Shown in pieces: positions 14,441 through 44,951 of a stretch of 52,478 bases of DNA. The DNA is taken from NCBI GenBank assembly GCA_020830965.2, contig JACCFC020000024.1:690-53167 (forward strand), given 5' to 3'. Each line of letters begins with the position of its first letter. The first letter of the stretch is position 1. The notes below the pieces were generated by a model that was not told the DNA's origin, did no database searches, and saw only the letters and a list, made by a program, of their open reading frames with translations. Made by a program: the position numbers and the translations under genes. The DNA is from Neisseriaceae bacterium TC5R-5 (GTDB taxonomy: Bacteria; Pseudomonadota; Gammaproteobacteria; Burkholderiales; Chromobacteriaceae).

Positions 14441-14552
14441 GAGCCGCTAACCAAACCCCTGATCCAGCGTTGCGCCTCCTTGCTGTACCGCTGGTACTGT
14501 CTTTGTCGGTGCGCCTTGGTTCAGGGGCTCTTCGACGTTTTGTTAGCGGTTC
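14441..14552 (+). mobile_element. MITE-like palindromic repeat, copy A (112 bp)
   Basis: Starts GAGCCGCTAAC and ends GTTAGCGGTTC, with identical TAA triplets on both sides (14438-14440 and 14553-14555). The left TAA is the fmdB stop codon. The interior is an imperfect palindrome containing CCCCTGATCC, GCGTTGCGCC, GGTACTGTCT and TTCAGGGG. Related copies lie at 17852, 37083, 40938 and 44840. No coding capacity is expected; ORFs through it are chance. Confidence 0.85.
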
Positions 14553-14694
14553 TAATAAGCAGCAGCAGGTGCAGCTATTCCTCTGGTGCCTGTTGCAGGC
14601 TGATTCAGATGAAGGTAGAGACTTTCCGTCGCTGGCGACTTGCTGTTACTCTCTTGTGCTGAGAAAAAACCACGAATAGAACGAAAGGTTGGTT

Positions 14695-16221
14695 ATGCAC
14701 AAGCAGCAAGATTATCTGGAGCGTATTTTAACCTCGCGCGTTTACGAGGTGGCGATTGAAACTCCGCTGGAGTTGGCGACCAATCTGTCACAGCGTTATG
14801 GCAATCGTATTCTGCTTAAGCGCGAAGACTTGCAGCCGGTGTTCTCCTTTAAGTTGCGTGGCGCTTATAACAAAATGGCCAGGCTCAGTCAGGAACAACT
14901 GGCCCGTGGCGTTGTGACTGCCAGTGCCGGTAACCATGCGCAGGGAGTGGCATTGTCGGCTAATCGTCTGGGTTGTGAGGCCATCATCGTGATGCCGCAG
15001 ACGACACCACAGATCAAGATTGATGCCGTAAAACGTTATGGCGGACAAGTCGTGCTGTCCGGCGACTCCTTCAGCGATGCTTTTCAGCATGCGATGAAAC
15101 TGGTTGAAGAGACGGGTAAAACCTATATCCCGCCATTTGATGATCCGGATGTGATTGCCGGTCAGGGCACGATAGGCATGGAAATTCTACGTCAGAATCC
15201 GGGTGAGTTGGCGGCGGTTTTTGTGGCAATTGGTGGTGGCGGTTTAGCGGCCGGAGTGGCCAGCTTTATCAAGCGTTTGCGGCCCGAAGTGAAGGTGATT
15301 GGCGTGCAGGCGACCGATTCTGACGCGATGCGTCAGTCTATTGCCAAAGGCGAACGCGTTGAATTGCAAGATGTCGGCCTGTTTGCCGATGGGGTGGCGG
15401 TGAAGCTGGTGGGGGTGGAAACCTTCCGTATCTGTCGTGAGTTGCTGGATGAAATTATTCTGGTGGATTCGGATGCGATGTGTGCGGCGATCAAGGATAT
15501 TTTTGAAGATACCCGCTCTATCGTCGAGCCTGCCGGTGCATTGGCGGTAGCTGGTGCCAAAGCCTATATCGAGCGTGAAGGCTGCCAAGGGCAAAATCTG
15601 GTAGCGATTGCCTGCGGCGCCAATATGAATTTTGATCGTTTGCGCCATGTGTCGGAGCGTTCCGAACTGGGTGAGCGACGTGAGGCGATTCTGGCGGTGA
15701 GTATCCCGGAAAAACCCGGTAGCTTTAAACAGTTTTGTGCGGTGATCGGCAATCGTAATATCACAGAATTCAATTACCGCTTTGCTGGTTCCGAGACGGC
15801 CCAGGTCTTTGTCGGCATGCAAACGCACGGTCGTGACGATATCGCGCAGATTGTAGCCAAGCTGAAGAGCCACGATTTGCAGTGTCTGGATCTTACCGAT
15901 AATGAACTGGCCAAGCTGCATGTGCGTCATCTGGTCGGAGGTCATGCCCCGCAGCTCAAAGATGAGCGGGTATTCAGCTTTGAGTTTCCCGATCGGCCGG
16001 GGGCATTAATACGTTTCCTGGAGGCGATGAGTACTGATTGGAATATCAGTCTGTTCCACTATCGCAATCATGGGGCTGACTACGGACGGGTGATGGTTGG
16101 CATTCAGGTACCTACTCAGGATTACCCGCAATTTCAGCAGTTTCTGAGCACAGTTGCTTATCCCTATGTCGATGAAACCGATAATCCGGCTTATAAGCTG
16201 TTTTTAGGTAAGACGCTATAA
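14695..16221 (+). CDS. ilvA: Threonine ammonia-lyase, biosynthetic (threonine dehydratase)
   Basis: A 508-residue PLP enzyme converting threonine to 2-oxobutyrate, first step of isoleucine synthesis. The catalytic domain (about 1-325) has the PLP lysine in FSFKLRGAYNKM, GNHAQGVA, and the glycine loop AIGGGGLAAG that binds phosphate. Two ACT-like regulatory domains follow (about 335-410 and 425-505, FSFEFPDRPGALIRFL), which mediate feedback inhibition by isoleucine; this separates it from the short catabolic TdcB type. Length matches E. coli IlvA (514). The ATG at 14695 follows AAAGG; an upstream TTG at 14689 is less likely. Confidence 0.95.
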   Translation: MHKQQDYLERILTSRVYEVAIETPLELATNLSQRYGNRILLKREDLQPVFSFKLRGAYNKMARLSQEQLARGVVTASAGNHAQGVALSANRLGCEAIIVMPQTTPQIKIDAVKRYGGQVVLSGDSFSDAFQHAMKLVEETGKTYIPPFDDPDVIAGQGTIGMEILRQNPGELAAVFVAIGGGGLAAGVASFIKRLRPEVKVIGVQATDSDAMRQSIAKGERVELQDVGLFADGVAVKLVGVETFRICRELLDEIILVDSDAMCAAIKDIFEDTRSIVEPAGALAVAGAKAYIEREGCQGQNLVAIACGANMNFDRLRHVSERSELGERREAILAVSIPEKPGSFKQFCAVIGNRNITEFNYRFAGSETAQVFVGMQTHGRDDIAQIVAKLKSHDLQCLDLTDNELAKLHVRHLVGGHAPQLKDERVFSFEFPDRPGALIRFLEAMSTDWNISLFHYRNHGADYGRVMVGIQVPTQDYPQFQQFLSTVAYPYVDETDNPAYKLFLGKTL

Positions 16222-16251
16222 CTCTGTAACCCACTCTAATGAGATGAAATT

Positions 16252-16899
16252 ATGATCAAGGCCGTTTTGTTTGACCTGGATGGCACCCTTGCCGACACCG
16301 CCCGTGATTTAGGGGCGGCATTAAATCGCCTATTGGCCGAAGAGGGCTTACCGCCGCAACCCTATGCGGCGATTAGACCGCTAGCCAGCCATGGAGCTCG
16401 CGGCCTGATCAAACTCGGTTTGGGGCTTGAGCCGGAACACCCGCGCTTTGAGGAGTACCGATTACGTTTTCTTGACCACTACGAAGCCAGTTTTACCGAT
16501 CAAACCTGTTTGTTTGATGGAGTTAATGAGTTATTAGATGGCTTGCTTAGCCGTGATCTGCGCTGGGGGATCGTGACGAATAAGCCTATGCGCTTTACTG
16601 ATCGCCTGATTCCGCTGTTACCGTTTAGCAGTACGCCGGCAGTGACGGTGAGTGGTGATACGGTAGGAGTAGCCAAACCAGACCCGCGTCCAATGTTTTA
16701 TGCGGCGGAGCAAATAGGTATGGCAGCGGAACACTGCCTCTACGTGGGTGATGCCGAGCGCGATATTGTAGCTGGCCGTAATGCTGGTATGCGGACAGTT
16801 TTAGCTAATTGGGGCTATATCGCGGCAGATGATCAGCCACAGACATGGGGGGCAGATGTGACGATTGAGCATCCTTTAGATTTGCTCAAGTACGTATGA
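16252..16899 (+). CDS. gph: HAD-family phosphatase, phosphoglycolate phosphatase-like
   Basis: A 215-residue HAD hydrolase with nucleophile motif FDLDGTLADT (Asp8, Asp10), motif II VTNKP, Lys in VAKPDPRPMF and motif IV VGDAERDI. The helical cap between residues 15 and 85 is the phosphoglycolate phosphatase type. Substrates could be 2-phosphoglycolate or, as for the MupP relatives, MurNAc-6-phosphate; the sequence does not decide. It follows ilvA by 30 bp. Confidence 0.8.
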   Translation: MIKAVLFDLDGTLADTARDLGAALNRLLAEEGLPPQPYAAIRPLASHGARGLIKLGLGLEPEHPRFEEYRLRFLDHYEASFTDQTCLFDGVNELLDGLLSRDLRWGIVTNKPMRFTDRLIPLLPFSSTPAVTVSGDTVGVAKPDPRPMFYAAEQIGMAAEHCLYVGDAERDIVAGRNAGMRTVLANWGYIAADDQPQTWGADVTIEHPLDLLKYV

Positions 16900-16936
16900 T
16901 GAAATGCCTACTTTACTGTTCAAGGAATAAAACACC

Positions 16937-17851
16937 ATGAAAAATATCAGGCTGGGGGATAGCCAGTTATACGCTTCTGAGATTGCCTTAGGTTGTATGC
17001 GTATGGCTGAACTGAGTGTGTCTGATGCCCATGCCAATATTGCGTGTGCGCTAGAGCAGGGGATCAATTTGTTTGATCATGCCGATATCTATGGTGCGGG
17101 TAAATCGGAAGAAATTTTTGCGGCCGCACTGCAGCATGGTCGCATTCGGCGTGATGATATTATTCTGCAGACTAAGTGCGGCATTCGTGAGGGCTTTTTT
17201 GACTTTTCAAAAGAACACATTATCCAGTCGGTAGAAAGTAGTTTGTCTCGTCTTAATACTGATTATATTGATGTGTTGCTGCTGCACCGCCCGGATACCC
17301 TGTTTGATGAGGAAGTGGCAGCGGCATTTGATGCTTTGCAAGACAGCGGTAAGGTTCGTTACTTCGGGGTGAGCAATCAAAAACCGTTACAGATGGCCTT
17401 GTTGCAGAAATATGTCTCGCAAAAGCTGATTATCAACCAGCTGCAGTTCAGCCTAGCGCATGCGGGCATGATCGATAGTGGCTTATATGCCAATATGAAA
17501 GTGGCCGCGGCGACGGATCATGATGGTAGCGTATTGGAATACTGCCGTTTGAACGACATCACGATTCAAGCGTGGTCGCCGTTTCAATATGGTTCTTTTG
17601 CCGGTACCTTTTTGAATAACCCTGACTTTGCCAAGCTCAATCAAGTGATTAATGAGTTGGCGCACAGTCACTCAGTCTCTAATTCCGCTATAGCCATTGC
17701 CTGGATTTTGCGCCACCCGGCCAAGCTGCAAGCCATTATTGGTTCAATGAATTTGAAGCGTATTGAAGACATTTGCCAAGCCGCTAAGGTTCAGTTGAGT
17801 CGGCAGGAGTGGTACCGACTGTATTGTGCCGCAGGAAACCCCTTGCCTTAA
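16937..17851 (+). CDS. Aldo/keto reductase (YdhF-like)
   Basis: A 304-residue NADPH-dependent oxidoreductase with a TIM-barrel fold. The catalytic tetrad is visible: Asp in NLFDHADIYGAGKSEE with the following Tyr, Lys in LQTKCGI, and His in VLLLHRPD. The C-terminal NADP site includes IIGSMNLKRIED. It resembles E. coli YdhF; the physiological substrate is unknown. It starts 37 bp after the phosphatase gene. Its TAA stop (17849-17851) is the left flank of repeat copy B. Confidence 0.9.
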   Translation: MKNIRLGDSQLYASEIALGCMRMAELSVSDAHANIACALEQGINLFDHADIYGAGKSEEIFAAALQHGRIRRDDIILQTKCGIREGFFDFSKEHIIQSVESSLSRLNTDYIDVLLLHRPDTLFDEEVAAAFDALQDSGKVRYFGVSNQKPLQMALLQKYVSQKLIINQLQFSLAHAGMIDSGLYANMKVAAATDHDGSVLEYCRLNDITIQAWSPFQYGSFAGTFLNNPDFAKLNQVINELAHSHSVSNSAIAIAWILRHPAKLQAIIGSMNLKRIEDICQAAKVQLSRQEWYRLYCAAGNPLP

Positions 17852-17914
17852 GAGCCGCTAACAACCCCCTGATCCCGCGTTGCGCCTTCTTGCCGTACTA
17901 TTTGTTCGCGGCTC
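17852..17914 (+). mobile_element. MITE-like palindromic repeat, copy B (internally deleted, 63 bp)
   Basis: Begins GAGCCGCTAACA and keeps the left half (CCCTGATCCCGCG, TTGCGCCTTCTTGCCGTAC), then jumps to the right terminus TTTGTTCGCGGCTC. About 50 bp of the interior is missing compared with copies A, D and E. The flanks are TAA (the aldo/keto reductase stop codon) and TCA, so the target duplication is imperfect. Confidence 0.8.
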
Positions 17915-18492
17915 TCAATACCTACCTCGTCAGCAGATTGATTGTATGACGAGGTACGGTTATCACGATTTACAATATTCATAGCAGCCATCCATCTAGT
18001 CGCAATCGTTTTCTTTTAACTTCATGTATTTGGTATTTTTTGCGTGCTTTTATTATTTAATAAAAATTTCTTATTGGGTGCGCCCAATAAACAGGCAAGT
18101 CGTCATCTATTTGATAAGAAAAGCAGTTTTTGAGTTTATCCACAGAGTTGCTCACCTATTCTGGGGGAAGTCTGCCGCTGCCTTGTGAGCGGGCGGTTGC
18201 AGCGGAGGCTGGGTAGATGAAACTTGTTACGGAGTAATCATACTGGCGGCGAAAGTGCTTATCGGCAAGCTATCTTACCCCTGGGTAAATGGGTTTGCTG
18301 CCTGTCAACGCTAGTTTGCCGCAGCTGCTATGCTGAATTTCAGCGGTGCTGCTTGGTACTTATTATGTCACGATCGTTGATTTTTTCATGCAAAAATCAT
18401 ATAAAAATTATTCAATATTCACTATTGATGAATATTTAGTGGTAAAAGCTTTGGGATATTGATCTATAAACGTGACAGATATAGGAATGTTG
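17915..18492. other. Gene-free region upstream of lemA
   Basis: Contains TACCTCGTCA/TGACGAGGTA (17923-17932 and 17947-17956), a 10-bp hairpin without U tract that may end the preceding operon, and TTATTGGG/CCCAATAA (18071-18090) in AT-rich DNA. A 71-codon frame at 18224-18439 has no ribosome binding site and no recognisable content. The lemA promoter presumably lies at the AT-rich right end. Confidence 0.5.
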
Positions 18493-19083
18493 ATGAAACT
18501 TGCTATTTTTCTTGGCCTCATTGTGTTGCTGCTCTCGTATTTGGTGGTGCTCTACAATGCCTTGGTCAATCTCAAGCATTCGGTCAGTAAGAATTGGGCC
18601 AATATTGATGTGCTGCTCAAGCAACGCCATGACGAACTGCCTAAGCTGGTCGAGGTCTGCAAACAGTATGCGCAGTTTGAGCAGGGCACCTTGGTACGGG
18701 TGATGGAGGCGCGGCGCAGTATTGCCGATGCCGCCCATAGTCAGGACCTAGAAAGGCTGGGTCATGCTGAAACCCAGTTACGCGGCTTGGTTGCTCAGCT
18801 AAATGCGGTGGTGGAGGCTTATCCACAATTAAAGGCTGACGAGCAGTTTGGTCAGTTGCTGGTACGTATCTCGCAGTTGGAGGATGCCTTGGCCGACCGA
18901 CGGGAGCTGTATAACGAGGCGGTAACGATTAACAATGTTCGCATCGAACAGTTTCCGGATGTGCTGGTGGCGCGTTTGTTTGGTTTTGAGTTGGCACGTC
19001 CCTTACGTTTTAGTGCCGCGCAGATCAAAGACGTTAACCTCACCGAGCTGTTTCAGAATGGTCAGTTGGCCAAATCGGAGTAA
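18493..19083 (+). CDS. lemA: LemA family membrane protein
   Basis: A 196-residue protein with one N-terminal membrane segment (KLAIFLGLIVLLLSYLVVLYN) followed by LVNLKHSVSKNWANIDVLLKQRHDELPKL, the conserved LemA opening, and long amphipathic helices. The function of LemA proteins is unclear; the body is predicted outside the cytoplasmic membrane. The ATG at 18493 is chosen because AGGA lies six bases before it; a GTG at 18472 is in frame. It precedes the GIDE-like gene by 43 bp, a pairing seen in many bacteria. Confidence 0.88.
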   Translation: MKLAIFLGLIVLLLSYLVVLYNALVNLKHSVSKNWANIDVLLKQRHDELPKLVEVCKQYAQFEQGTLVRVMEARRSIADAAHSQDLERLGHAETQLRGLVAQLNAVVEAYPQLKADEQFGQLLVRISQLEDALADRRELYNEAVTINNVRIEQFPDVLVARLFGFELARPLRFSAAQIKDVNLTELFQNGQLAKSE

Positions 19084-19126
19084 GCGTTGTCATGCCAGTC
19101 GTTGAGATAGTCGGGAGATAAGGCTT

Positions 19127-20035
19127 TTGTTAAGCCGCTTGCTGTGTCGGCATGGCCGGCTGATTTTTTTGGCTTACCTGCTGTGTTTCCTGCTGTTAGT
19201 CAGCCAGCAGCGCTCAATCTATGCGCTACCGGCTTTGTGCGCGGTGGCTGTGCTGGGTTGGTACCTAAATCAGCGACGCTATCGTCTGATCACGGATACG
19301 CCACGTTCGCGTCTTTCGTCTGCTGCACTGGGACGGGTAGAACTGCATGGCCGTGCTTATTGCCATCCTCATGCGGTGAATTACAGCCCGCTGTCCGCAC
19401 GGCGTTGTGTGTGGTATCGCTGCTGGCGCTTAGAGGACGAAAACCGGCAAAGCTTACCGTTTTTACGTGCATGGCTGGGGCAGCCAGACTATGGCATGCA
19501 TAGCGAAACCAGCAGTGACAGCTTTCTGCTACAAGACGGCGAGCAACAGGCGATTGTGCTGCCAGAAGGGGCGGAGGTGCTGCCTTCGCATCAGCATAGC
19601 TGGCAAGAGGAAGGAGCCCAACTGACTGAGGAGTGGATAGAGGAGGGCGAGCTGCTGTATATCAGTGCTCGTCTTGAGCCCTTGGCGCAACGCAGCGGAA
19701 CGCTGGATGTGCGCTTGGATATCGGTCAGAAACTAGCGGAATGGAAGCAGGATCGTCACCGCTTATTACAGCGTTTTGATCAAAACCGTGATGGCCAATT
19801 AGACCAACAGGAGTGGCAGGCAGCGCGGGCGGCAGCCCAGGTTGAGGTGGAACAGCAACTGCAAGAGCAGGCGCAGTCGGGTCCTAATTTATTGTTGCAA
19901 CAGAGCAATGATGGCTTGCCGTTCTTGATTACTACGCTGACCCCGCAGGCGAGTGCGAACTTATTTCGGCGGCTGGCCTGGCTACATGCAGGCGCGGCGC
20001 TGATCAGCTTAGTTTTGTGGCTATACAGTTTGTAA
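19127..20035 (+). CDS. GIDE-domain-like membrane protein with an EF-hand
   Basis: A 302-residue protein with membrane segments near each end (about 12-45 and 280-300). Between them, LSSAALGRVELHGRAYCHP and CVWYRCW resemble the GIDE/MULAN-type domain of proteins encoded beside lemA. Residues about 219-231 (DQNRDGQLDQQEW) match the calcium-binding EF-hand loop, with Asp at positions 1, 3 and 5 replaced only by Asn at 3 and Glu at 12, followed by an Ala/Gln-rich coiled region. Start: TTG at 19127 behind AAGG; no earlier ATG is in frame. Function unknown; partnership with LemA in the envelope is inferred from position. Confidence 0.65.
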   Translation: MLSRLLCRHGRLIFLAYLLCFLLLVSQQRSIYALPALCAVAVLGWYLNQRRYRLITDTPRSRLSSAALGRVELHGRAYCHPHAVNYSPLSARRCVWYRCWRLEDENRQSLPFLRAWLGQPDYGMHSETSSDSFLLQDGEQQAIVLPEGAEVLPSHQHSWQEEGAQLTEEWIEEGELLYISARLEPLAQRSGTLDVRLDIGQKLAEWKQDRHRLLQRFDQNRDGQLDQQEWQAARAAAQVEVEQQLQEQAQSGPNLLLQQSNDGLPFLITTLTPQASANLFRRLAWLHAGAALISLVLWLYSL

Positions 20036-20137
20036 CAAAACAACTGGGTTGAGTATGGAGCGATAGCTAAAATAATAATTAATAAGCACTTAGAATAAAT
20101 AGCAAGAGTTTTTCTGCACCGCCAGTGGGAGAGCACC

Positions 20138-20590
20138 ATGATTCGCCTGATCTATAGCAGTGCTGCCATTGCCCCGGTAGAGCCGGAGCAGATCGCGACC
20201 AGCCTGATGCCATATCAGCAATACAATGAGCAGCATGGTATTCGCAGCCTGTTGCTGATGCTGAATAATGATTTCCTGCAGATTCTGGAAGGCTCAGCCG
20301 ATGAAGTGGATATGCTCTATCAGCATATTGCTCACGATCACCATCATCACCAGCTAACGTTACTGTCGCGTGAAACCATTGCCGAGCCTATGCTGGCCGA
20401 TCACCCCTTGCAATATTTTGCTCCAGGCCCACCTGGCGAAGGCGAAACCCTGTCCTATCACATGTTTAATGCTGCTACCGGCCAGGCCCTGCAAGGCAAG
20501 CCACAGCAAGTGGTGAGTAGCTTTCTGGAGGGCAAGTGGCATCACCATCTGCCTAATGGTATGAATCCGCAGGTATTGCGGCGTGGATAG
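20138..20590 (+). CDS. BLUF-domain blue-light sensor, single domain
   Basis: A 150-residue protein that is almost only a BLUF (FAD-binding blue-light) domain. The conserved Tyr is in IRLIYSS, an Asn in QQYNEQHGI, and Gln in NNDFLQILEGSADEVDMLY, followed by the IAHDHHHHQ segment. The usual GITG turn reads GIRS. About 50 residues follow the core and may signal to a partner. Short BLUF proteins usually act by protein-protein contact. The ATG follows GTGGGAGAG at good distance. Transcribed after the GIDE gene with about 100 bp between. Confidence 0.85.
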   Translation: MIRLIYSSAAIAPVEPEQIATSLMPYQQYNEQHGIRSLLLMLNNDFLQILEGSADEVDMLYQHIAHDHHHHQLTLLSRETIAEPMLADHPLQYFAPGPPGEGETLSYHMFNAATGQALQGKPQQVVSSFLEGKWHHHLPNGMNPQVLRRG

Positions 20591-20711
20591 CCGCAAAATT
20601 GGTATATCTAGGCGTTTTTACGGGGTTTTTTATCTTCCTGCTATGCGTAAAAGGCGCTGACGATGCCAGTAGAATGGGGGTAGAATCCTCTGTTCTATCG
20701 AATAAACAACC

Positions 20712-22499: not shown

Positions 22500-22500
22500 C

Positions 22501-22889: not shown

Positions 22890-22939
22890 TGATCTTGGCA
22901 TTTTCTGTTAATTCACATCAGCTTATTTATCAGATACGT

Positions 22940-31950: not shown

Positions 31951-31969
31951 TGATAACTACTAAAATGTT

Positions 31970-35392: not shown

Positions 35393-35434
35393 TAAACTCT
35401 AACTCTATTCGCCGACATGGGGCTTGATGAGCCG

Positions 35435-36061: not shown

Positions 36062-36115
36062 GGGGGGCTTCTTTAAAAAACGCGCATTCTAATGATTTAT
36101 AGTGCTCGCCGCCAG

Positions 36116-37003
36116 CTATTTACCATGACTTGCCGCTACTAAAAAATCAATGAAAGCACGCACCACGGTATTGGGTTGACGATGCTGCGGATACACCACC
36201 TGAATGACACTGCTATCTCGCTCAAAGTCACTTAACACCATTTGCAGACGGCCTGCGGCCAGCGCGGGTGCGGCAATAAAATCAGGTATCTGAGTAATCC
36301 CCAGGCCATCTATTGCGGCCGCGAGTAGTAGTTCTCCATTATTGCTGCGATAACGTCCTGATAAACCCACTGTATAACGCTGGCCATCGCTTAATCGGAA
36401 CTGCCACTCGCTTGCTTGGCCGTGTCCGTACAATAAACAGGTGTGCTGCTTCAGTTGTTCTGGATGCTGAAGTGGCTTGTGTTTGACCAGATAAGTCGGG
36501 CTGGCTACGGTCAGATAACGCACAGTAGCAATCTTACGTGCTAATAAAGAAGAATCAGGCAAACGACCAATGCGAATGGCCATGTCATAACCCTCACTTA
36601 GCAAATCGACTATGCGATCACTCAAATCTACCTCAATCTGTACCTCGGGGCATTGCTGTAAGAAGCCGTTCACCAACGACGGTAAATGCTCTTGTCCATA
36701 AGACATGGGTGCAGAAAGCCGTAGCTTGCCCTTAGGTAAAACACTGTGGCTGCTGATGGCCTGATCGGCTTCATCTGCTGCTGCCAGCACACGACTGGCA
36801 CGCTCCAGATAATCCATTCCCAAGCTTGTTGGACTAAGCTGACGCGTCGTGCGGTGGAGTAAGCGTACGCCCAAGCGCTCTTCCAGTGCCGCCACACGGC
36901 GACTGACATATTGTTTGGATAGCCCTAGCTGTGTCGCTGCTTGCGAAAAGCTGCCTCGCGTCAATACTTCTACATAGATTTGCATATCTTCCAAACGGCT
37001 CAT
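36116..37003 (-). CDS. LysR-family regulator divergent from pirin
   Basis: A 295-residue LysR protein. The N-terminal helix-turn-helix reads FSQAATQLGLSKQYVSRRVA, ALEERLGVRLLHRTTRQLS; the substrate domain (about 90-290) has LRLSAPMSYGQEHL and YDMAIRIGRLPDSSLLARK. It belongs to the subgroup resembling DhcR and PgrR regulators. It diverges from the pirin gene and is a candidate regulator of it. A repeat element now occupies half of the shared promoter region. Confidence 0.9.
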   Translation of the reverse strand: MSRLEDMQIYVEVLTRGSFSQAATQLGLSKQYVSRRVAALEERLGVRLLHRTTRQLSPTSLGMDYLERASRVLAAADEADQAISSHSVLPKGKLRLSAPMSYGQEHLPSLVNGFLQQCPEVQIEVDLSDRIVDLLSEGYDMAIRIGRLPDSSLLARKIATVRYLTVASPTYLVKHKPLQHPEQLKQHTCLLYGHGQASEWQFRLSDGQRYTVGLSGRYRSNNGELLLAAAIDGLGITQIPDFIAAPALAAGRLQMVLSDFERDSSVIQVVYPQHRQPNTVVRAFIDFLVAASHGK

Positions 37004-37082
37004 TGTCCACCTGTGTGAGATAATTATTGATATTTCGCTGTATTGTAATCTTCAATGGGACAAGCAACAATAAAAGTACTTA

Positions 37083-37183
37083 GAGCCGTTAACAAAAGCT
37101 CGAAGAAGCCCTGGGCCAAGGCGCGCCGACGCAGACAGTACCAAGGAGGCGCAAGGCTGGAGCAGGGGTTTTGTTAGCGGTTG
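37083..37183 (-). mobile_element. MITE-like palindromic repeat, copy C (101 bp, reverse orientation)
   Basis: Starts GAGCCGTTAACAAAAGCTCG and ends GTTTTGTTAGCGGTTG, with identical TTA flanks (37080-37082, 37184-37186). The interior is the reverse complement of copies A, D and E, about 11 bp shorter. It sits in the promoter region between the LysR gene and the pirin gene, ending 38 bp before the pirin ATG. Confidence 0.82.
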
Positions 37184-37221
37184 TTATCACTGCCAAGCAA
37201 GGTTTAGCAAAGGAAAGCACA

Positions 37222-37941
37222 ATGTTAGATATTAGAAAGGCCGCGGCACGAGGACAGGCTGATTTTGGCTGGTTGTATGCACAGCATAGCTTTTCCTTCG
37301 GCTCTTATTTTGACCCGCAGCAACAGGGTTTCTCCGACCTCTTGGTTATCAACGAAGATAAAATTCAAGCCGCGAAGGGCTTTGCTACCCATCCACACCG
37401 CGATATGGAAATCTTCACCTATGTGCTGGCTGGTGCGCTGGCGCACCAGGATTCCATGGGTAATGGTTCGACCATTCGTCCTGGTGATGTGCAAATGATG
37501 AGTGCCGGTAGTGGTATTCGTCACAGCGAATTCAATGCCTCTGACACCGAGCTGGCTCATTTATTGCAAATCTGGATCATGCCCGACCGGCATGGGGTTA
37601 CCCCGCGTTATCAGCAAATTCATTTTGATGAGCAGCAGAAGCGGGGTCGTCTACAGCTCATCATTTCCCCAGAAGGTAGCGACGGCTCATTATTGGTCTA
37701 TCAGGACATGCGTCTGTATGCCGGCTTATTTGAGGGCAGCGAGAGCGCTAGTTTTGTTGTGCCGCCACAGCGCTACGTTTATCTACACTTGGCCCGCGGC
37801 AGCCTCAAGGTCAATGGTATTCGTCTCAATGCCGGTGACGGCGCACGTATCCGTCAGTCTGGTGAATTGCACTTTAGTGATGGCGACAATGCCGAGGTGT
37901 TACTGTTTGATTTACGACCACAGGAACTGCCAACGCGCTAG
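37222..37941 (+). CDS. Pirin family bicupin protein (YhhW-like)
   Basis: A 239-residue bicupin. Metal site residues are in FATHPHRDMEIFTYVLAG (two His) and GSGIRHSEFN with a later Glu/His region, matching quercetinase-type pirins such as E. coli YhhW. Family members open flavonols by dioxygenation in vitro; the natural role is unclear. The ATG at 37222 follows AAAGGAA; a longer frame to 37171 runs into the repeat's flank and is rejected. Likely regulated by the divergent LysR protein. Confidence 0.9.
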   Translation: MLDIRKAAARGQADFGWLYAQHSFSFGSYFDPQQQGFSDLLVINEDKIQAAKGFATHPHRDMEIFTYVLAGALAHQDSMGNGSTIRPGDVQMMSAGSGIRHSEFNASDTELAHLLQIWIMPDRHGVTPRYQQIHFDEQQKRGRLQLIISPEGSDGSLLVYQDMRLYAGLFEGSESASFVVPPQRYVYLHLARGSLKVNGIRLNAGDGARIRQSGELHFSDGDNAEVLLFDLRPQELPTR

Positions 37942-38001
37942 TTTACCTGTACAGTTCTGCCGAGGCCGGGGTGGCGGATGACAAGTTAGCCAATCAGTAA
38001 A

Positions 38002-38046
38002 GCCACCGGATGTGGCCTGATTTGAACAGTGCTTTTATCCGGTGGC
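38002..38046. terminator. Long hairpin between convergent pirin and aqpZ genes
   Basis: GCCACCGGAT (38002-38011) and ATCCGGTGGC (38037-38046), 10-bp stem with a 25-nt loop; on the minus strand followed by TTTACTG. Probably a shared terminator. Confidence 0.6.
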
Positions 38047-38068
38047 TAGCAAGGGCGGTGAGCTGCGT

Positions 38069-38785
38069 TTATTCGAAGATCTCAACTGCTTGAACGCTGG
38101 TTTTTTCCTCAGCCAGCAAACGGTAAGTCAGAGCACCGAGTATTGCGCCAGCAACGGGAGCCAGCCAGAACAACCAGAGCTGTGCGACGGCCCAATCACC
38201 AACAAATAAAGCGACGCCAGTGCTACGCGCCGGATTGACCGAAGTATTGGTCACCGGGATGCTGATCAGATGAATCAGGGTGAGTGCCAAGCCGATGGCC
38301 AGTGGTGCAAAACCGGCGGGTGCGCGCTTATCGGTAGCGCCCATGATGATCAGCAGGAAAAACATCGTCATGACTACTTCGCATACCAGTGCTGCCAGTA
38401 GCGAATAGCCGCCTGGCGAATGCGCGCCATAACCATTAGAGGCAAAGCCTTTGGCCAATTCAAAGCCGGCGGTGCCGCTGGCGATTACATAGAGCACGGC
38501 AGCGGCGCTAATCGCTCCCAATACCTGAGCGACGATATAGGGCAATAGCTGCTGCCCCGGAAAGCGCCCGCCTACCCATAAGCCTATCGATACCGCCGGG
38601 TTCAAATGACAACCCGAAATGTGTCCGATGGTATAGGCCATGGTTAATACAGTCAGACCAAAAGCCAGTGCCACTCCCAGCAAGCCGATACCAACGTTGG
38701 GAAAAGCCGCGGCCAGCACGGCACTGCCGCAACCCCCTAATACCAGCCAAAAAGTCCCTAAAAATTCTGCACCGTATTGTTTCAT
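38069..38785 (-). CDS. aqpZ: Aquaporin Z
   Basis: A 238-residue channel of the MIP family with six membrane helices. The two NPA loops are [11 protein letters not shown] and [13 protein letters not shown]. The N-terminus [20 protein letters not shown] is typical of AqpZ, and length matches E. coli AqpZ (231). It lets water cross the inner membrane. Transcribed alone with an AT-rich promoter region upstream. Confidence 0.95.
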
Positions 38786-39258
38786 GATTTTCCTTCAGTG
38801 ATTCGCAGCCGCAGATTTGCACCACGCATAGCGTGGACGCAATTAAGTTGCTTTGAATAAAGTATTTATTGTTAATGAATTAATTTGATCTAATTTAAAA
38901 TTAAATAGCATTAATTTTAACGGTTTTTGGGCTGGCTAGCTATGGGTAGCGCTATAGGTCGCATAGGGTGATCAAGGCTTTAGCTTGGAAAATGGCTGCG
39001 AGGGATCAGTCTGTATGGACTTTTATGGTATGACTAGCATTGACTTGGCTGGAATTGGGGCAAGTAAGCTGTTGTGATGACGTTTGGGGAAAATAGATGA
39101 TATGAAGAGGGGTAGTTTAATCAAGCGTAAATGACCACTGGGGTGGGGTGATCATTTCGTTAGCGTAAGGGTCTTGCCAGAGCTCCTTAATAGCAGGCTG
39201 GCGGAACGGTGCTAAAAGCCGAATATTCGTTCCGCGTTGCCCTTCACTGTTCTCGTCT
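38786..39258. other. Gene-free region between aqpZ and azoR
   Basis: About 470 bp. The left part (38850-38930) is strongly AT-rich and should contain the aqpZ promoter. Two inverted repeats are visible: AAATGA/TCATTT around 39129-39156, and GCGGAACG/CGTTCCGC (39201-39208, 39228-39235), the latter 24 bp past the azoR stop and perhaps its terminator. No credible ORF. Confidence 0.5.
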
Positions 39259-39858
39259 TTATGCCGAAAGCGTGTTTATCTGACTGTGGGCATTTGCCAG
39301 CCCTTGTGCTTTGCCATGAGGTCTGATGTCCATTCCTTCGGCATAGATAAAGTTCACATCACTGATACCGATCAGCCCCAGTACTGCTTTCAGATAAGGG
39401 GTCACTGCATCGGTTTCCATACCGACATGGATGCCGCCGCGTGAGCTGACCACGACAGCGCTTACCCCCTCGACCAAGCCTAGCGGATAGGTCTCGGTAT
39501 ATCTGAAAGTGAGACCGGCGCGCGCCACGAGGTCGAACCAGTTTTTAAGATGGGTAGGGATATTCAGGTTATACATCGGAGCACCAATCACTAATAGATC
39601 GCTTGCCTTGAGCTCCGCTATCAGTTGATCAGATAGCGCCACTACATTTTTGGCACGCTGGCTCAAGTTCTCGCCGCCGCGCATGGCGCTGAATAATTCG
39701 CCATCGAGTACTGGTAGGTCAAGGGTAGTGAGATCGCGTACGGTTACTTCGTCGTGGTAGCCTTTGGCTTGGCGTTCGGCTAAAAAAGTATCGATCAGCG
39801 AATTGGTTTGAGAGTTGGTGCCCATGATGCTGGATTTGAGGACAAGAATTTTTTTCAT
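39259..39858 (-). CDS. azoR: FMN-dependent NADH-azoreductase
   Basis: A 199-residue flavodoxin-fold quinone/azo reductase. FMN-binding parts: KSSIMGTNSQTNSLID, the APMYNLNIPTHLKNWFD loop and VVSSRGGIHVG. AzoR reduces quinones and azo compounds in two-electron steps with NADH and helps against thiol stress. It diverges from a LysR gene, the usual arrangement for regulated azoreductases. Confidence 0.92.
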   Translation of the reverse strand: MKKILVLKSSIMGTNSQTNSLIDTFLAERQAKGYHDEVTVRDLTTLDLPVLDGELFSAMRGGENLSQRAKNVVALSDQLIAELKASDLLVIGAPMYNLNIPTHLKNWFDLVARAGLTFRYTETYPLGLVEGVSAVVVSSRGGIHVGMETDAVTPYLKAVLGLIGISDVNFIYAEGMDIRPHGKAQGLANAHSQINTLSA

Positions 39859-40013
39859 GATGGTTTCCCGATTAAAATATTGACGGTAATAGCCGCTCTG
39901 TCAGTCACGGCATTTGATTGACTAAAATAATATAGTACGAATTCTAACATTGCTTTTTGTTCTTTATTAGTGATAGTAATTCTAGGTATTGATTCCTTCA
40001 GGGATACAATGAA

Positions 40014-40937
40014 ATGAGTGTGGACTTGAACGGTATTGCTGTTTTTGTAACGGCGGCAGAGATGGGTAGCTTTACCCGTGCAGCGGAAAAGCTGCATTTG
40101 ACACGCTCGGCAGTAGGTAAAACGATTGCGCGGCTGGAGGAGCGGCTGAGTGTGCTGCTGTTTCAGCGAACTACCCGTAAGCAGAGCCTGACGGTTGAGG
40201 GGGTGATGTTCTACGAACATTGTCAACGCGCACTGGCTGAAATCCGCTTGGCTGAGGAACTGCTCAATAATGGCAAATTGGAGGTGAGTGGCCGGTTAAG
40301 GATTTCTATGCCGGTGCTGTTTGGGCACCGGTGTGTTGCTCCAGTGTTAACCGAGTTCTCTGCGGAACATCCCCTGCTGCAGCTGGAAATGTCGTTTAGT
40401 GATCGTGCAGTGGATTTTATTGAAGATAGATTTGACCTGGCTATCCGCATCGGCTCTTTACCCGATAACAGTACGCTGGTTGCCCGCCAGTTGGGTGAGC
40501 ATCGCATGGTGTTCTGCGCTGCACCGAGCTATCTTGCTCGTTGCGGAGAACCGCAGTCGCTGGCGGCTTTGCGTGAACATGATGCTGCTGCCTATATCCG
40601 CGCCGGAATTGCACAGAAATGGCAGTTGATTGATAGTGAAGGCCAACTGCAGCAGATCAGGCCAAAAGCAAAACTGCTGATGGATGATATGCAGGCCATT
40701 GCTGATGCCGCCGTTTACGGCATAGGGATTGTCTGGCTTCCTTACTGGCTGGTACGAGAGCAGTTAGCCAAAGGGGCTCTGCGAGAAGTGATGGCAGCAT
40801 TCTTGAGTGTGTCTTTTCCTATCCAGGCGGTATGGCCTTATACCTCACGCCTTCCGCTAAAAGTCAGGTTGGCGGTGGATAAACTGCTGTTGCAACTACC
40901 TGCCAGATTGAGCTTGATTGAATCTGTCGTGACTTAA
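40014..40937 (+). CDS. LysR-family regulator divergent from azoR
   Basis: A 307-residue LysR protein with helix-turn-helix GSFTRAAEKLHLTRSAVGKT, IARLEERLSVLLFQRTTRK and a ligand domain (LRISMPVLFGHRCVAPVL, FDLAIRIGSLPDNSTLVAR). It probably controls azoR across the 155-bp shared promoter region in response to quinone or electrophile stress, by analogy. Its TAA stop (40935-40937) is the left flank of repeat copy D. Confidence 0.9.
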   Translation: MSVDLNGIAVFVTAAEMGSFTRAAEKLHLTRSAVGKTIARLEERLSVLLFQRTTRKQSLTVEGVMFYEHCQRALAEIRLAEELLNNGKLEVSGRLRISMPVLFGHRCVAPVLTEFSAEHPLLQLEMSFSDRAVDFIEDRFDLAIRIGSLPDNSTLVARQLGEHRMVFCAAPSYLARCGEPQSLAALREHDAAAYIRAGIAQKWQLIDSEGQLQQIRPKAKLLMDDMQAIADAAVYGIGIVWLPYWLVREQLAKGALREVMAAFLSVSFPIQAVWPYTSRLPLKVRLAVDKLLLQLPARLSLIESVVT

Positions 40938-41048
40938 AGGCCGCTAACAAACCCCTGATCCCGCGTTGCGCCTTCTTGCCGTACTAGGGGTACTGTCTGC
41001 GTCGGCGCGTCTCGGCTCAGGCACGCTTCGAGCTTGTGTTAGCGGCGC
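40938..41048 (+). mobile_element. MITE-like palindromic repeat, copy D (111 bp)
   Basis: Begins AGGCCGCTAACAAACCCC and ends GTGTTAGCGGCGC. Identical TAA flanks at 40935-40937 (LysR stop codon) and 41049-41051. The interior palindrome includes CCCTGATCCCGCG, GCCGTACTAG, GGTACTGTCTGCGTCGG and CGGCTCAGG. Confidence 0.85.
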
Positions 41049-41254
41049 TAAGAACGCCACGACTTTTCTTGTCATGGTGTGATGTTAAATTTTGTGCCTT
41101 ATCTGCACATTGGCGATGCTGAACTCCACTGAACAAAGTCAGCAAGAAGTCGCACTAAAGAGTGCTCTACTATTAGCTAATACGTAAGCCACAGCAGGCA
41201 CGGGGCTTTTAGCATACAATGCGGCACAAGCTATTTTTGACGAGGATACCCATC

Positions 41255-41926
41255 ATGACCGATATGGTTTTTAACGACGCAGATCTGTTACGGCTGGAAG
41301 CGCTACTGACGCCGCTATCTGCTAATGGCAGCACGATGCGGCCAGACGAAGTGCAAGGTTTTTTTGCGGCCTTGGCCAGCGGCCCGGATGAGATGAATAA
41401 GGCTTTTTGGCTGCCGGAGATATTAGGCGATGCCCCCGCTTTTGCGCAAGCCAGTGATGAGAGCGAACTGGAAGCACTGCTACAGAAGCTGTATGACACG
41501 ATTGCCCGCACGCTGCTTGTGGGTGAAGAACTGAATCTGATTCTGTATGCCGCCGAGGACGATGAAGAAGAAGCTCCGGATTACTGGCCGTGGGCAAATG
41601 CCTATTTATATGCGCTTGATGTGGTGGATACCGATTGGTTTGAAGTGGCCGATGACGAAGGCTTTGAAACGCTGATGATGCCGATGTTGGTACTGGGTGG
41701 CGCGTTTGAAGAGGAAGACGGCGAAGATCTGATGACTTTTGAGGATGAAGAGTTGGAAGACTATAAAGCTGACCTGCCTGCCGCACTGGTTGCGGTGCAT
41801 CGTTACTGGCGCGCTAAGCAACAGGCACCGGTTACCTTTCGCCACAACGGTAGCAAGCCAGGGCGTAATGACCCTTGCACCTGTGGCAGTGGCAAAAAGT
41901 ATAAAGACTGTTGCGGCAACAATTAA
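41255..41926 (+). CDS. UPF0149/YecA-like protein with SEC-C zinc motif
   Basis: A 223-residue acidic protein. The N-terminal two thirds resemble the YecA/YgfB (UPF0149) helical fold (LEALLTPLSANGSTMRPDEV, QGFFAALASGP). A Glu/Asp-rich stretch (about 155-178) leads to the C-terminal SEC-C motif, PGRNDPCTCGSGKKYKDCCG, which binds zinc. E. coli YecA, which has the same layout, associates with ribosomes and SecA. The ATG at 41255 is preceded by GAGGAT; the first 12 codons of the longer frame are rejected. Confidence 0.85.
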   Translation: MTDMVFNDADLLRLEALLTPLSANGSTMRPDEVQGFFAALASGPDEMNKAFWLPEILGDAPAFAQASDESELEALLQKLYDTIARTLLVGEELNLILYAAEDDEEEAPDYWPWANAYLYALDVVDTDWFEVADDEGFETLMMPMLVLGGAFEEEDGEDLMTFEDEELEDYKADLPAALVAVHRYWRAKQQAPVTFRHNGSKPGRNDPCTCGSGKKYKDCCGNN

Positions 41927-41938
41927 GTAGGATAAGTG

Positions 41939-42418
41939 ATGGAAGCTGTTGGATACATGCTGGCTGTGGTGTTGCTGGTAGCCGGCCTGGCCGGCACGGT
42001 ACTGCCGATTATTCCTGGTTTGCCGCTGATGTTTGGCGGCTTTTTATTGGGTGCCTGGCTGGATGGTTTTCATCATCTGGGGGCACTCAGCTTGTGGATT
42101 ATGGGCTTGATCGCTGCCGTGGGGGTGGCGATTGACTTCTTGGCCGGCCTGCTTGGCGCTAAAGCTAGCGGCGCGAGTAAACAGGCTTTGTGGGGGGCAT
42201 TTATTGGTAGTATTGTCGGCATGTTTTTGGGTGTGGCCGGCGTGCTGCTCGGCCCTTTACTTGGCGCGATGATCGGTGAGTTCATCGCACGCAAGGATGC
42301 GTTCCAATCTGGCAAAGTGGGCATTGGGACGTTTATCGGTTTTATCGTGGGAGCAGTAGCCAAGGTAGCCTGTGCGTTTGCGATGCTGGCGACGTTTGCG
42401 CTGGCTTTGATCTTGTAG
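41939..42418 (+). CDS. DUF456 family membrane protein
   Basis: A 159-residue Gly/Ala-rich protein with four or five membrane segments (for example VGYMLAVVLLVAGLAGTVLP and IPGLPLMFGGFLLGAWLDG). The LPIIPGLPLM motif is typical of DUF456, whose function is unknown. It starts 12 bp after the SEC-C gene with AGGA upstream, so the two are probably cotranscribed. A small hairpin AGCAAG/CTTGCT overlaps its stop. Confidence 0.85.
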   Translation: MEAVGYMLAVVLLVAGLAGTVLPIIPGLPLMFGGFLLGAWLDGFHHLGALSLWIMGLIAAVGVAIDFLAGLLGAKASGASKQALWGAFIGSIVGMFLGVAGVLLGPLLGAMIGEFIARKDAFQSGKVGIGTFIGFIVGAVAKVACAFAMLATFALALIL

Positions 42419-42505
42419 CAAGGCGGCTGCTTGCTTAGCAAACTGAGCATAGCGTCTGATAGGTTAATATTGTAAAAGTAATGTCTAGGTAGTGAGAGGG
42501 TGGCT

Positions 42506-42718
42506 ATGGGACGATACTGTATTTGGTTTGTGACACCGGACGATAGCGTGATGCGTCGTGCCGAGGTCGTGATTAATGGCGTTATTCATTGTCATCAGGT
42601 GCTGGAGGAAATCGAAGCACAATTAGCGGTGGATTGTGGCCTGACCCAGGTGATGGTTGTGGACTGGAAACGCTTTGAAACCCCTGAGGTGGCAATCACC
42701 CCCGCACCGGCAGCCTGA
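42506..42718 (+). CDS. Small unknown protein upstream of mobB
   Basis: A 70-residue frame, MGRYCIWFVTPDDSVMRRAE onward, ending in Ala/Pro-rich AITPAPAA. It begins with strands and a helix (VLEEIEAQLAVDCG), compatible with a small alpha/beta protein. GAGAGGG precedes the ATG at 42506. No family recognised; it is on the same strand as mobB, 71 bp ahead. Confidence 0.55.
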   Translation: MGRYCIWFVTPDDSVMRRAEVVINGVIHCHQVLEEIEAQLAVDCGLTQVMVVDWKRFETPEVAITPAPAA

Positions 42719-42789
42719 GAGCATCAGCCTCTTTAGCTGTCAGGTGCCCATGGTATGATGGCCGTCTGATTTTCTATGATTCCGTTCCC

Positions 42790-43296
42790 ATGTATGTTCT
42801 CGGCTTGGCCGGTTATTCCGGCAGCGGCAAAACCACTCTACTAGAAAAACTAATTCCTTTGCTGCGTGCGCAAGGTTTGCGCGTGGCGGTGATCAAACAC
42901 ACCCATCACGATGTGGATTGGGATCAGCCGGGTAAAGATAGTTGGCGTCATCGTCAGGCCGGGGCCAGTCAGGTCATTCTGGCCGCTGGCAAGCGGCGCA
43001 TGCTGGTAGAAGAGCAGGAGGCCAGCAATGAATTGCCGTTGGCAGCACAACTGGCTTGGTTGGGGCCTTGTGATCTGGTATTGGTCGAGGGCTATAAGCA
43101 TGAGGCGATTCCGAAGCTGGAGGTAGTGAATAGCCAGCTAAACGCCCCGGCACTTTATCCCGAGGATGCCCGGGTGCTGGCCTTGGTGGCCGATGTGCTG
43201 CTACCGTGTCCTTTGCCTTGTTTTCAACGCGATGCGCCTGATCGTATCGTTCACTTCATTCTGTCTCAATTGGACTCTTCCTATGCTGAGCTTTGA
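42790..43296 (+). CDS. mobB: Molybdopterin-guanine dinucleotide biosynthesis adaptor MobB
   Basis: A 168-residue P-loop GTPase: VLGLAGYSGSGKTTLLEKL, VIKHTHHDVDWDQPGKDSWR, and LVLVEGYKHEAIPKLEV. MobB assists MobA in attaching GMP to molybdopterin. The bis-MGD form is what the FdsA formate dehydrogenase in this window needs. It overlaps moeA by 14 bp. Confidence 0.93.
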   Translation: MYVLGLAGYSGSGKTTLLEKLIPLLRAQGLRVAVIKHTHHDVDWDQPGKDSWRHRQAGASQVILAAGKRRMLVEEQEASNELPLAAQLAWLGPCDLVLVEGYKHEAIPKLEVVNSQLNAPALYPEDARVLALVADVLLPCPLPCFQRDAPDRIVHFILSQLDSSYAEL

Positions 43297-44476
43297 TCAA
43301 GCCCACGCCTGGCTATTGGCCCGTGCGAATGTATTAGCGGATAGCGAAACCCTACCCTTGCTGGCTGCGGCTGGCCGGGTATTGGCATCGCCGGTTATTG
43401 CCGGCCTGGATGTCCCGCCGCATGATAATAGCGCCATGGATGGCTATGCCTTATGTACAGCACAGCAGACCGCTGCCATGCCGGTATCGCAGCGAGTCCC
43501 TGCTGGCACCGTGCCGCAGCCGCTGGTCAGCGGCAGTGTGGCACGTATTTTTACCGGTGCGCCGATTCCACCAGGTGCTGACGCGGTGCTGATGCAGGAA
43601 GTGGCTAGTGTGCAAGAGAATGGCTTAGTCGGTTTCAGCCAAAGTGCGCAAGCAGGGCAGAATATCCGCCGTCGTGGTGAAGAGATTCATAGCGGACAGC
43701 AGATTCTGGCCGCAGGCAAAGTACTGACGGCGGCTGATATAGGCTTAGCTGCTTCCGTCGGTTTGCAACAACTGACGGTGTGGCGGCGCTTGCGGGTGGC
43801 GGTGTTTTTTACCGGTGATGAACTGGTGGAGCCGGGGCAGTCCTTGGCTGCTGGGCAAATCTATAACTCCAACCGTTATTGGTTGTTGCCTGCTCTCGCT
43901 AGCCTAGGTTGTGAGGTGCAGGACCTGGGCATTATTGCCGATTCCTTGGCGGCTACGCGCGAGGCCTTGCGGGCCGCTGCCAGCCAGGCCGATGTGATTA
44001 TGACTTGTGGTGGTGTGTCTGTGGGCGAGGAGGATCATGTCAAGGCGGCGGTAGAAGCGGAGGGCACGCTGGACTTATGGAAGGTGGCAATGAAACCGGG
44101 TAAACCGCTGGCTTATGGCAAAATCGGCCAAGCGGATTTTATCGGTCTGCCGGGCAACCCGGTCTCGGGTTTTATCACCTTTCAGGTACTGGCCAGAGCT
44201 TTTTTACAGCAGCGCGCGCATGTGCCAGTAAGCAGTCTGCTGCCACAGGGTCATTATCCGGCTGATTTTGACTGGACGCGACCAGATGCCAAACGCAGCG
44301 AGTTTCTGCGTGTACGTCGAGTGGAGCAGGGCGGTGTCTGGTCTTTGCAGCTATATCCGCAGCAGGGCTCTGGCGTGTTGATGTCTTGTGCCTGGGCCGA
44401 CGGGCTGGTGTGCCTGGCTCCAGGTCAGACGGTAGCCAAGGGTGAGCTGCTGGCTTATCTGCCGTTGGTGGTGTAG
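43283..44476 (+). CDS. moeA: Molybdopterin molybdenumtransferase MoeA
   Basis: A 397-residue enzyme that inserts molybdate into adenylated molybdopterin. Recognisable parts: VPPHDNSAMDGYAL, the ARIFTGAPIPPGADAVLMQE core, FFTGDELVEPGQ, IYNSNRYWLLPAL, MTCGGVSVGEEDHVK and FIGLPGNPVSGF. The start is the ATG at 43283, overlapping mobB; no ribosome binding site is visible, so translation is likely coupled. A longer frame to 43166 is rejected. Confidence 0.95.
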   Translation: MLSFDQAHAWLLARANVLADSETLPLLAAAGRVLASPVIAGLDVPPHDNSAMDGYALCTAQQTAAMPVSQRVPAGTVPQPLVSGSVARIFTGAPIPPGADAVLMQEVASVQENGLVGFSQSAQAGQNIRRRGEEIHSGQQILAAGKVLTAADIGLAASVGLQQLTVWRRLRVAVFFTGDELVEPGQSLAAGQIYNSNRYWLLPALASLGCEVQDLGIIADSLAATREALRAAASQADVIMTCGGVSVGEEDHVKAAVEAEGTLDLWKVAMKPGKPLAYGKIGQADFIGLPGNPVSGFITFQVLARAFLQQRAHVPVSSLLPQGHYPADFDWTRPDAKRSEFLRVRRVEQGGVWSLQLYPQQGSGVLMSCAWADGLVCLAPGQTVAKGELLAYLPLVV

Positions 44477-44481
44477 CCGCT

Positions 44482-44820
44482 ATGCCGACGATACGTTTCG
44501 TTGATCAGCAACAACAGTTGTTATGCGAGCAGCAGGCGGCTACTGGCGATAATCTGCTGGATGTGGCCAGGCTAGCGGATGTGCCCTTGCATTGGCGCTG
44601 CGGACAAGGCACCTGCGGTACTTGCAAAGTGCGTGTTAGCGGCGCGCAAACACTAATACAGCAGGTTGGGCGTAAGGAACGTAATGTCTTGCTGCGTGCC
44701 GGGGTGATTTCAGCTGAGCTGGCCGCCAACGAGCTATGGCAGCTAGACCAGCCGTGGCGTCTGGCTTGTCATCTCAAAATAGGCGAGGAAGACTGGTTGG
44801 TGGAGTGCCCATCGTTTTGA
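44482..44820 (+). CDS. [2Fe-2S] ferredoxin
   Basis: A 112-residue plant-type ferredoxin domain. Cluster cysteines are in LHWRCGQGTCGTCKVRV and the final WRLACHL. It starts 5 bp after moeA, so it belongs to the mobB-moeA transcript. Its redox partner is unknown; adjacency to cofactor genes is suggestive only. Confidence 0.85.
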   Translation: MPTIRFVDQQQQLLCEQQAATGDNLLDVARLADVPLHWRCGQGTCGTCKVRVSGAQTLIQQVGRKERNVLLRAGVISAELAANELWQLDQPWRLACHLKIGEEDWLVECPSF

Positions 44821-44839
44821 CGATCTCCACCATCGTTTA

Positions 44840-44951
44840 GAGTCTTTAACAAAGCCCCTGATCCAGCGCTGTGCTTCCTTGCCGTAACACTTTTACCATC
44901 TGTATCGGCGCGCCTTGGCTCAGGAGCTCTTCAAGCTTTTGTTAGCGGCTC
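44840..44951 (+). mobile_element. MITE-like palindromic repeat, copy E (112 bp)
   Basis: Begins GAGTCTTTAACAAAGCCCC and ends CTTTTGTTAGCGGCTC, with identical TTA flanks (44837-44839, 44952-44954). The right TTA is, on the minus strand, the TAA stop codon of pgeF. It separates the convergent ferredoxin and pgeF genes. The left terminus is the most diverged of the family. Confidence 0.85.

Follow-up and report, generated by a model that had tools for sequence, protein, structure and literature searches.

The stretch of Neisseriaceae bacterium TC5R-5 analysed here (the window: 52,478 nucleotides, contig JACCFC020000024.1, positions 690 to 53,167) carries five copies of a short palindromic repeat, which is probably a miniature inverted-repeat transposable element (MITE) having the ends of an IS5-family insertion sequence (IS), moved in trans, and carrying a core hairpin of the type known from the Correia element (CREE) of Neisseria. 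According to this explanation, a non-autonomous transposon of ~112 bp, accompanied by a deletion form of 71–74 bp, shares its ~17-bp ends with an IS5-family IS of 863–864 bp, and the two-frame transposase of that IS (DUF4096 plus DDE_Tnp_1) most likely moves the element in trans into YTWAR, usually duplicating the TWA. The interior would be a conserved imperfect hairpin homologous to the CREE/NEMIS core; the same hairpin is present in other small elements, whose ends are unlike, and persists downstream of pstB and moaA in another gammaproteobacterial family.

CREE has been described as occurring only in Neisseria, with its mobilising mechanism undetermined (PMC2649163), and Correia elements have likewise been stated to be unique to that genus (PMC5039591). 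The core is here traced to dozens of genera, a candidate mobilising IS is identified in a single lineage, and the core shows the covariation of a hairpin. The movement of Correia-type elements and the purpose of their core thereby become testable in harmless hosts. By implication, regulatory effects known from work on two pathogens may be of wide occurrence.

The element family and its target

The genome was sampled as 60 stretches plus the window (1,212,244 bases, with a GC content of 50–53%). Searching with a profile of 31 well-formed copies yielded 79 matches, which were merged into 71 elements, a number far beyond chance for 1.21 Mb. The length is 112 bp in 28 copies, 111 bp in six, and 71–74 bp in ten. 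The copies have the attributes by which MITEs are defined: they are short and non-coding, and have terminal inverted repeats and a target duplication.

Two recognisable ends are present in 64 of the 71 elements. The 3-bp flanks are identical in 43 of these (TAA in 27 and TTA in 16, with no others) and unlike in the remaining 21. The initial annotation had described a MITE-like element with a TNA target and a 3-bp duplication; the MITE-like character and the duplication are borne out, whereas the target proves narrower, being TWA in all 43 copies with identical flanks. With the empty target written with TAA, a pyrimidine precedes it in 35 of the 43 and a purine follows it in 39. The target is YTWAR.

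REP/REPIN elements, a class of bacterial repeat with RAYT transposases, resemble the element by description, being short repeated extragenic palindromes, and differ in that no DDE-IS ends enclose them. Compared likewise by description, RUP of Streptococcus pneumoniae is a 107-bp MITE for which an IS with shared ends is known, as for the present element, and is of the IS630 type, unlike the present element. Betaproteobacterial MITEs of Polaromonas and Ralstonia are named in a review (PMC10969869); part of the element's family may already have been described among them under another name.

A candidate mobilising insertion sequence

The same genome contains an 864-bp IS (locus L060) with the same ends as the element, and its two open reading frames (ORFs) match PF13340 (DUF4096) and PF01609 (DDE_Tnp_1). 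Its ORFB has matches in 15 of 61 genomes, one of which (G006) contains 14 copies. Among 30 IS loci, 12 have 863–864 bp between element-like ends, 11 of the 12 being in relatives. The flanks of these 12 full-length copies are identical in four cases (three TAA, one TGA), TTA/TAA in four, TAA/TTA in three, and TCA/TTA in one. The IS thus has ~17-bp ends and TNA flanks in common with the element, which differs in containing no transposase. On the basis of the shared ends, the IS5-family IS is probably the mover of the element in trans.

A separate locus, L062 (G000:C94, ~1221–1874), is a chimaera in which the left part of an IS5-family IS is followed by the MITE's core and right end. This arrangement hints at a way in which new combinations of ends and core can arise, and may represent an intermediate in end swapping.

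A core shared with the Correia element

The initial annotation had not recognised the family by name; it can now be identified as a relative of the Correia element of Neisseria. Aligned with a 106-bp CREE (L265), the consensus core of the TC5R-5 copies is identical in 45 of 53 columns, and the alignment scores 64, whereas 2000 letter shuffles reached at most 27. A hidden Markov model (HMM) made from the TC5R-5 interiors alone finds the same CREE at 3.9e-5, with nothing found in reversed controls; in another set, it detects a further Correia copy, L313, with a value of 2e-4.

CREE and the element thus have a conserved core region in common, and they are alike in other respects. The CREE length classes of 104–108 and 69–73 bp (PMC2649163) are similar to the 111–112 and 71–74 bp of the element, and CREE is present in 92–249 copies per genome (PMC5039591), the element too being numerous, as the sample shows. 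The ends are alike in part (TTAACAAAAA in the element, CTAACAAAAC in CREE) and otherwise differ (GAGCCGCTAACAAAACC in the element, TATAGTGGATTAACAAAAA in CREE). The target of CREE is TA, whereas the identical flanks of the element are always the 3-bp TAA or TTA. TA has also been described at the CREE termini. No copy corresponding to the 153–157 bp class of CREE is present among the 64 two-ended copies. The 26-bp terminal Correia repeat (TATAGTGGATTAA..., one of four published variants, searched with up to two mismatches) is absent from the TC5R-5 genome (G000) and occurs in three of 399 genomes of the order, which belong to a single genus, presumably Neisseria. Primers in the Neisseria literature carry the motif, and a MITE of Thiomargarita has been likened to Correia in structure (PMC4853749); in the excerpts of the open-licence literature searched, no mention was found of the Correia core outside Neisseria, of such elements in Chromobacterium, or of a pstB–phoU hairpin.

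Several observations weigh against the explanation proposed here. The transposase frames of L060 are interrupted and the copies on contig C94 are remnants, leaving no intact partner IS seen in the TC5R-5 genome; at a third match there (C78), no ends were found in the locus. The flanks of the full-length IS copies, always TNA, are less regular than those of the element, and the duplication may therefore vary in length. In genomes having the core under other ends, PF13340 was found in three of ten, and matching ends in none of nine loci. The HMM of the TC5R-5 interiors finds one of the 16 CREE loci that were fetched with one of four published Correia-repeat variants (PMC5039591), the others being mostly longer, truncated, or N-masked. 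CREE, moreover, has been called IS630-derived (PMC2817692), whereas the candidate mobiliser of the element belongs to the IS5 family. Finally, empty sites were looked for in two places: the pgeF region of relatives, where the DNA is too divergent (at most 71% identity) to show a single TWA, and the sampled genome itself, which gave no empty site of the same locus, the five BLAST rows being taken as copies that match their own places.

The core as a covarying hairpin

Covariation was analysed in 71 matches aligned without gaps by anchoring on the conserved internal loop (CGCAGACA / GGCAAG), the count leaving aside three of 79 matches that lay beyond the first 76 and five that had no anchors. 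The seven bases on each side of the loop pair in 74.6% of cells in register, as against 17.5–36.4% when one side is slid, in one direction only, by one to three positions. In a set of 41 divergent helices, all distinct, Watson-Crick pairs make up 224 of 287 cells, compared with 97.5±8.8 (maximum 131) in 2000 shuffles, the rows being related and the counts accordingly not independent events. The matches had been retrieved by a model that pairs five of the seven helix columns; the other two, which are the pairs nearest the loop and are unpaired in the search model, covary too, being Watson-Crick in 35 and 33, respectively, of 43 divergent rows. In some rows GTGC/GCAC, GTGGC/GCCAC, GTAGC/GCTAC, and others take the place of the apical helix GTAC/GTAC. 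A fixed loop between freely changing helices is, by analogy, the pattern of structured RNAs and of DNA sites that are read in folded form.

The hairpin is also found at fixed gene addresses, as seen in 39 loci that are the best matches of a gammaproteobacterial family (f55) and of other groups. It lies 19–30 nt after pstB in 12 loci of 12 f55 genomes (L316, L320, L322, L323, L334, L349–L351, L353, L354, L356, and L359), where the arms have been rewritten and still pair, and 21 nt after moaA in eight loci of eight f55 genomes (L310, L340, L341, L342, L345, L352, L355, and L358). The genes were named from Pfam matches in example loci—ABC_tran beside PhoU in L322, Mob_synth_C plus Radical_SAM in L310, and Aminotran_5 beside NifU_N in L311—and otherwise from shared protein ends, phoU being read downstream in L322 and L334. 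The strand reading CTTGCC-GTAC-loop-GTAC-TGTCTGCG is the sense strand in all 12 pstB loci and in six of the eight moaA loci, the other two being unoriented by the anchor. The loop-adjacent arms vary among orthologues, with median identities of 73% and 77%, and yet pair, and such diverged but paired arms at fixed addresses speak for a function that has probably been kept.

The core hairpin occupies other gene contexts as well: in a locus from another family it lies between iscS and iscU (L311, 1501–1563), and in L325 (1501–1564) it lies 25 nt after a gene of the CobO/BtuR type.

Distribution of the core

At least 108 stretches of named genomes contain a 22-base piece of the interior, and the genera represented include Chromobacterium, Aquitalea, Vogesella, Ralstonia, Herbaspirillum, Duganella, Candidatus Glomeribacter, Aromatoleum, Uliginosibacterium, and Methylobacillus, among others. 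Most rows of the alignment (A1) were chosen by an exact match to this 22-mer, which lies in the core's left half, and the conservation of that half in the alignment follows from this choice. In the right half, which played no part in it, 104 of 106 loci give a conservation of 76–100% per column, apart from 63% in the first. The core stands under unlike ends, namely GAGCCGCTAACAAAACC, GAAGCTGTAACAAAATG, GGGATGTTCAGCATTG, GAGTGGTTCACAATCC, and CGTTTCGCACAGCC, and all the elements that bear it may be of common descent.

At E 1e-4 per genome, a covariance model of the core, built from 22 sequences, has matches in 113 of 399 genomes of the order, representing 61 of 158 genera, a count that is partly expected because most rows of the model come from the same order. 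Across the phylum, 30 of 398 genomes match: the TC5R-5 genome itself, 12 others of the order, 11 from other orders of the class, and six from other classes, these six being among the weaker matches (best E from 2.2e-7 to 8.5e-5). At a looser limit of E 1e-3, matches were obtained in 65 of 119 genomes and 14 of 19 genera of f55. Many genomes have a single match, and some have many, G776 having 34.

Several single loci extend this picture. One of the 34 matches of G776 (L326) has a core variant (GTCATAGC..GCTATG) with long and quite different arms. Loci L330 and L336, from another class of the phylum, have a core variant whose arms end roughly in GTGTCCTATCCCGTAGAAG, a further unrelated type of end. 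A viral contig of IMG/VR (L263, 5694–5756) carries the core with paired arms, and two large plasmid records of Eleftheria terrae (NZ_CP106952.1 and NZ_CP106953.1) match one of the window copies (copy A, described below) at 72.5% identity.

Taken together, a broader proposal can be made, tentatively and at somewhat less than even confidence: the Correia core would be a very old structured cassette, independent of any one transposon, whose loop is fixed while its helices are rewritten, which rides on different IS ends across Pseudomonadota, which has become fixed more than once after operon genes such as pstB and moaA, and whose folded form is recognised by an unnamed host factor.

Function and placement of the hairpin

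The hairpin appears to have been kept for its folded form, either as RNA or as DNA. As RNA, it would be processed or bound by RNase III, as for CREE, and would thereby control the stability of the upstream message, a possibility that is open to appreciable doubt. RNase III cleavage of CREE transcripts has been reported (PMC10969869 and PMC2649163), the consensus of the TC5R-5 copies folds at about −56 kcal/mol on either strand, and the constant sense orientation after pstB, and after moaA where the anchor gives one, is what an RNA role would lead one to expect. The strand signature of an RNA was sought in the mismatches. In the core-strand reading of 38 full-length copies, GT (88) exceeds AC (64); the helix of 18 orthologues, read on the sense strand, has 122 Watson-Crick pairs, one GU, and three AC, so that GU is not above AC. 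The whole arms, with the fixed internal-loop mismatches counted in, give 14 GU versus 32 AC at pstB and 11 versus 10 at moaA. As a yardstick, GU makes up 20 of 295 bracketed pairs in 14 tRNAs, an annotation that apparently marks canonical pairs only, such that only the GU share is used. The copies in the TC5R-5 genome are without clear orientation bias, and six loci gave no Rfam match at gathering score, the only hit being RF01136 (E 0.71, with 19.1 bits against a threshold of 39); these results, together with the absence of a GU excess in the orthologues, stand against an RNA role.

As DNA, the core would be kept as a folded or cruciform structure, with a protein reading the mismatched internal loop or with template switching keeping the arms alike. 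Such a role would account for the near-exclusive Watson-Crick pairing of the helices, in which either wobble reading is rare, for a core common to elements with unlike ends, and for an internal loop whose conservation contrasts with the change in both helices. A DNA site would not need to keep one orientation after pstB and moaA, however, and to our knowledge no protein binding the core has been described, which also counts against this alternative. Given that GU is not above AC and that orientation in the TC5R-5 genome is near even, the folded-DNA and RNA roles are regarded as equally probable, each being a possible account and neither a favoured one.

The initial annotation had judged the copies on stop codons to be more than target choice alone would lead one to expect, and had suggested that the hairpin could serve as a 3′ terminator or RNA stabiliser. 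A preference of this kind—insertions directed to, or retained at, stop codons, with the hairpin providing a useful 3′ end—is unlikely. For the null expectation, the elements and their duplicated flanks were removed, genes were called, and the non-coding insertions were compared with motif-weighted non-coding TWA sites at five gene-calling thresholds. The gene caller was a simple one, which missed fmdB at one threshold, and a usable site was available for 69 of the 71 copies. Genes are avoided, 4–6 of the 69 insertion sites lying in coding DNA as against 72–75% of target-weighted sites. Outside the window, a TAA stop is hit by 7 of 58–60 copies, compared with 4.7–5.6 expected (one-sided p 0.19–0.33), so that the claimed excess is not seen there; the result is similar for an unweighted null (7 of 59 versus 4.8, p 0.21) and when copies on stops are kept out of the weighting (7 of 59 versus 5.3, p 0.28). 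With the window copies included, which were the source of the idea and of which four of five lie on stops, a mild excess is obtained (10–11 of 63–65 copies versus 5.1–6.1 expected, p 0.03–0.06; unweighted, p 0.035), so that a slight preference may exist. Counting both kinds of overlap between target and stop in all copies gives 12–13 versus 7.8–9.4 (p 0.08–0.18). TAA is the most frequent stop, ending 544 of 1072 called genes, and an element seeking TWA will for this reason often land on one; the gathering of copies outside genes, often on stops, follows from an AT-rich target, TAA as the main stop codon, and the loss of coding insertions. The stop-codon habit is thus about what the target sequence predicts.

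The suggested role as a 3′ end is no more than a possibility. A pattern scan for a GC-rich stem with a T run after it found no typical terminator at the window copies—one weak 5-bp site inside copy A (14485–14497), none at the other four, and totals no higher than in shuffles—and orientation in tandem gene contexts within the TC5R-5 genome is near even (24 versus 18). A useful 3′ end would be consistent with the depletion of copies between divergent genes (8 of 64 versus 23%) and with the related hairpin lying directly 3′ of pstB and moaA in f55.

That the core is functionless, the interior of an ancient MITE copied with whatever ends and conserved through recent bursts, is quite improbable: copies within the TC5R-5 genome do lie close to one consensus, but pairing is kept despite helix replacement, in many families and in two conserved gene contexts, and this account, disfavoured by the covariation, would regain ground if the latter came from the choice of anchors or from the use of a paired model in retrieval.

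The five copies in the window

All five copies lie, with the flanks originally described, at the positions first assigned to them; in what follows, the minus strand denotes copies in which the core strand GCAGACAGTAC reads on that strand. Copy A (14441..14552, minus strand, 112 bp) stands 3′ of an fmdB-like gene with flanks TAA/TAA; copy B (17852..17914, minus strand, 63 bp), which has an internal deletion, stands 3′ of an aldo/keto reductase gene with flanks TAA/TCA; copy C (37083..37183, plus strand, 101 bp), classed as lying between divergent genes, has flanks TTA/TTA; copy D (40938..41048, minus strand, 111 bp) stands 3′ of a LysR-family gene with flanks TAA/TAA; and copy E (44840..44951, minus strand, 112 bp) lies between convergent genes, at the pgeF stop, with flanks TTA/TTA. 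The conserved core hairpin of copy D (40958..41020, minus strand) is the row 'own' of alignment A1. The termini, which had been described as shared, are alike in all five and only approximately so, copy D starting with AGGCCGCTAACA and copy E with GAGTCTTTAACA, and the right termini vary as well, copy A ending in GCGGTTC and copy C in GCGGTTG.

Copies A, B, D, and E each adjoin an in-frame TAA stop, as had been proposed, the ORFs ending at 14440, 17851, 40937, and 44952, and the adjoining genes match Zn_ribbon_8 (FmdB-like), Aldo_ket_red, LysR, and Cu-oxidase_4 (pgeF), respectively, in Pfam. The stop of the fmdB-like ORF (14438..14440, plus strand) is repeated at 14553–14555, that of the LysR-family ORF (40935..40937, plus strand) at 41049–41051, and that of pgeF (44952..44954, minus strand, reading TTA on the plus strand) at 44837–44839; the stop of the aldo/keto reductase ORF (17849..17851, plus strand) faces the TCA at the other flank of copy B. 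The duplicated TAA preserves the stop codon, as the initial annotation had held.

The pgeF gene of the window is 62–69% identical to that of genomes placed in the same genus. Of 39 relatives having a pgeF match, 29 were examined, and in all of these the gene stops at about the same residue, without an element end in the 60 bases that follow, so copy E was inserted at a native stop that was kept. At copy C, an ORF at 37171–37941, with a TTG start at 37171, overlaps the element by 13 bases, and its true start is therefore probably further downstream.

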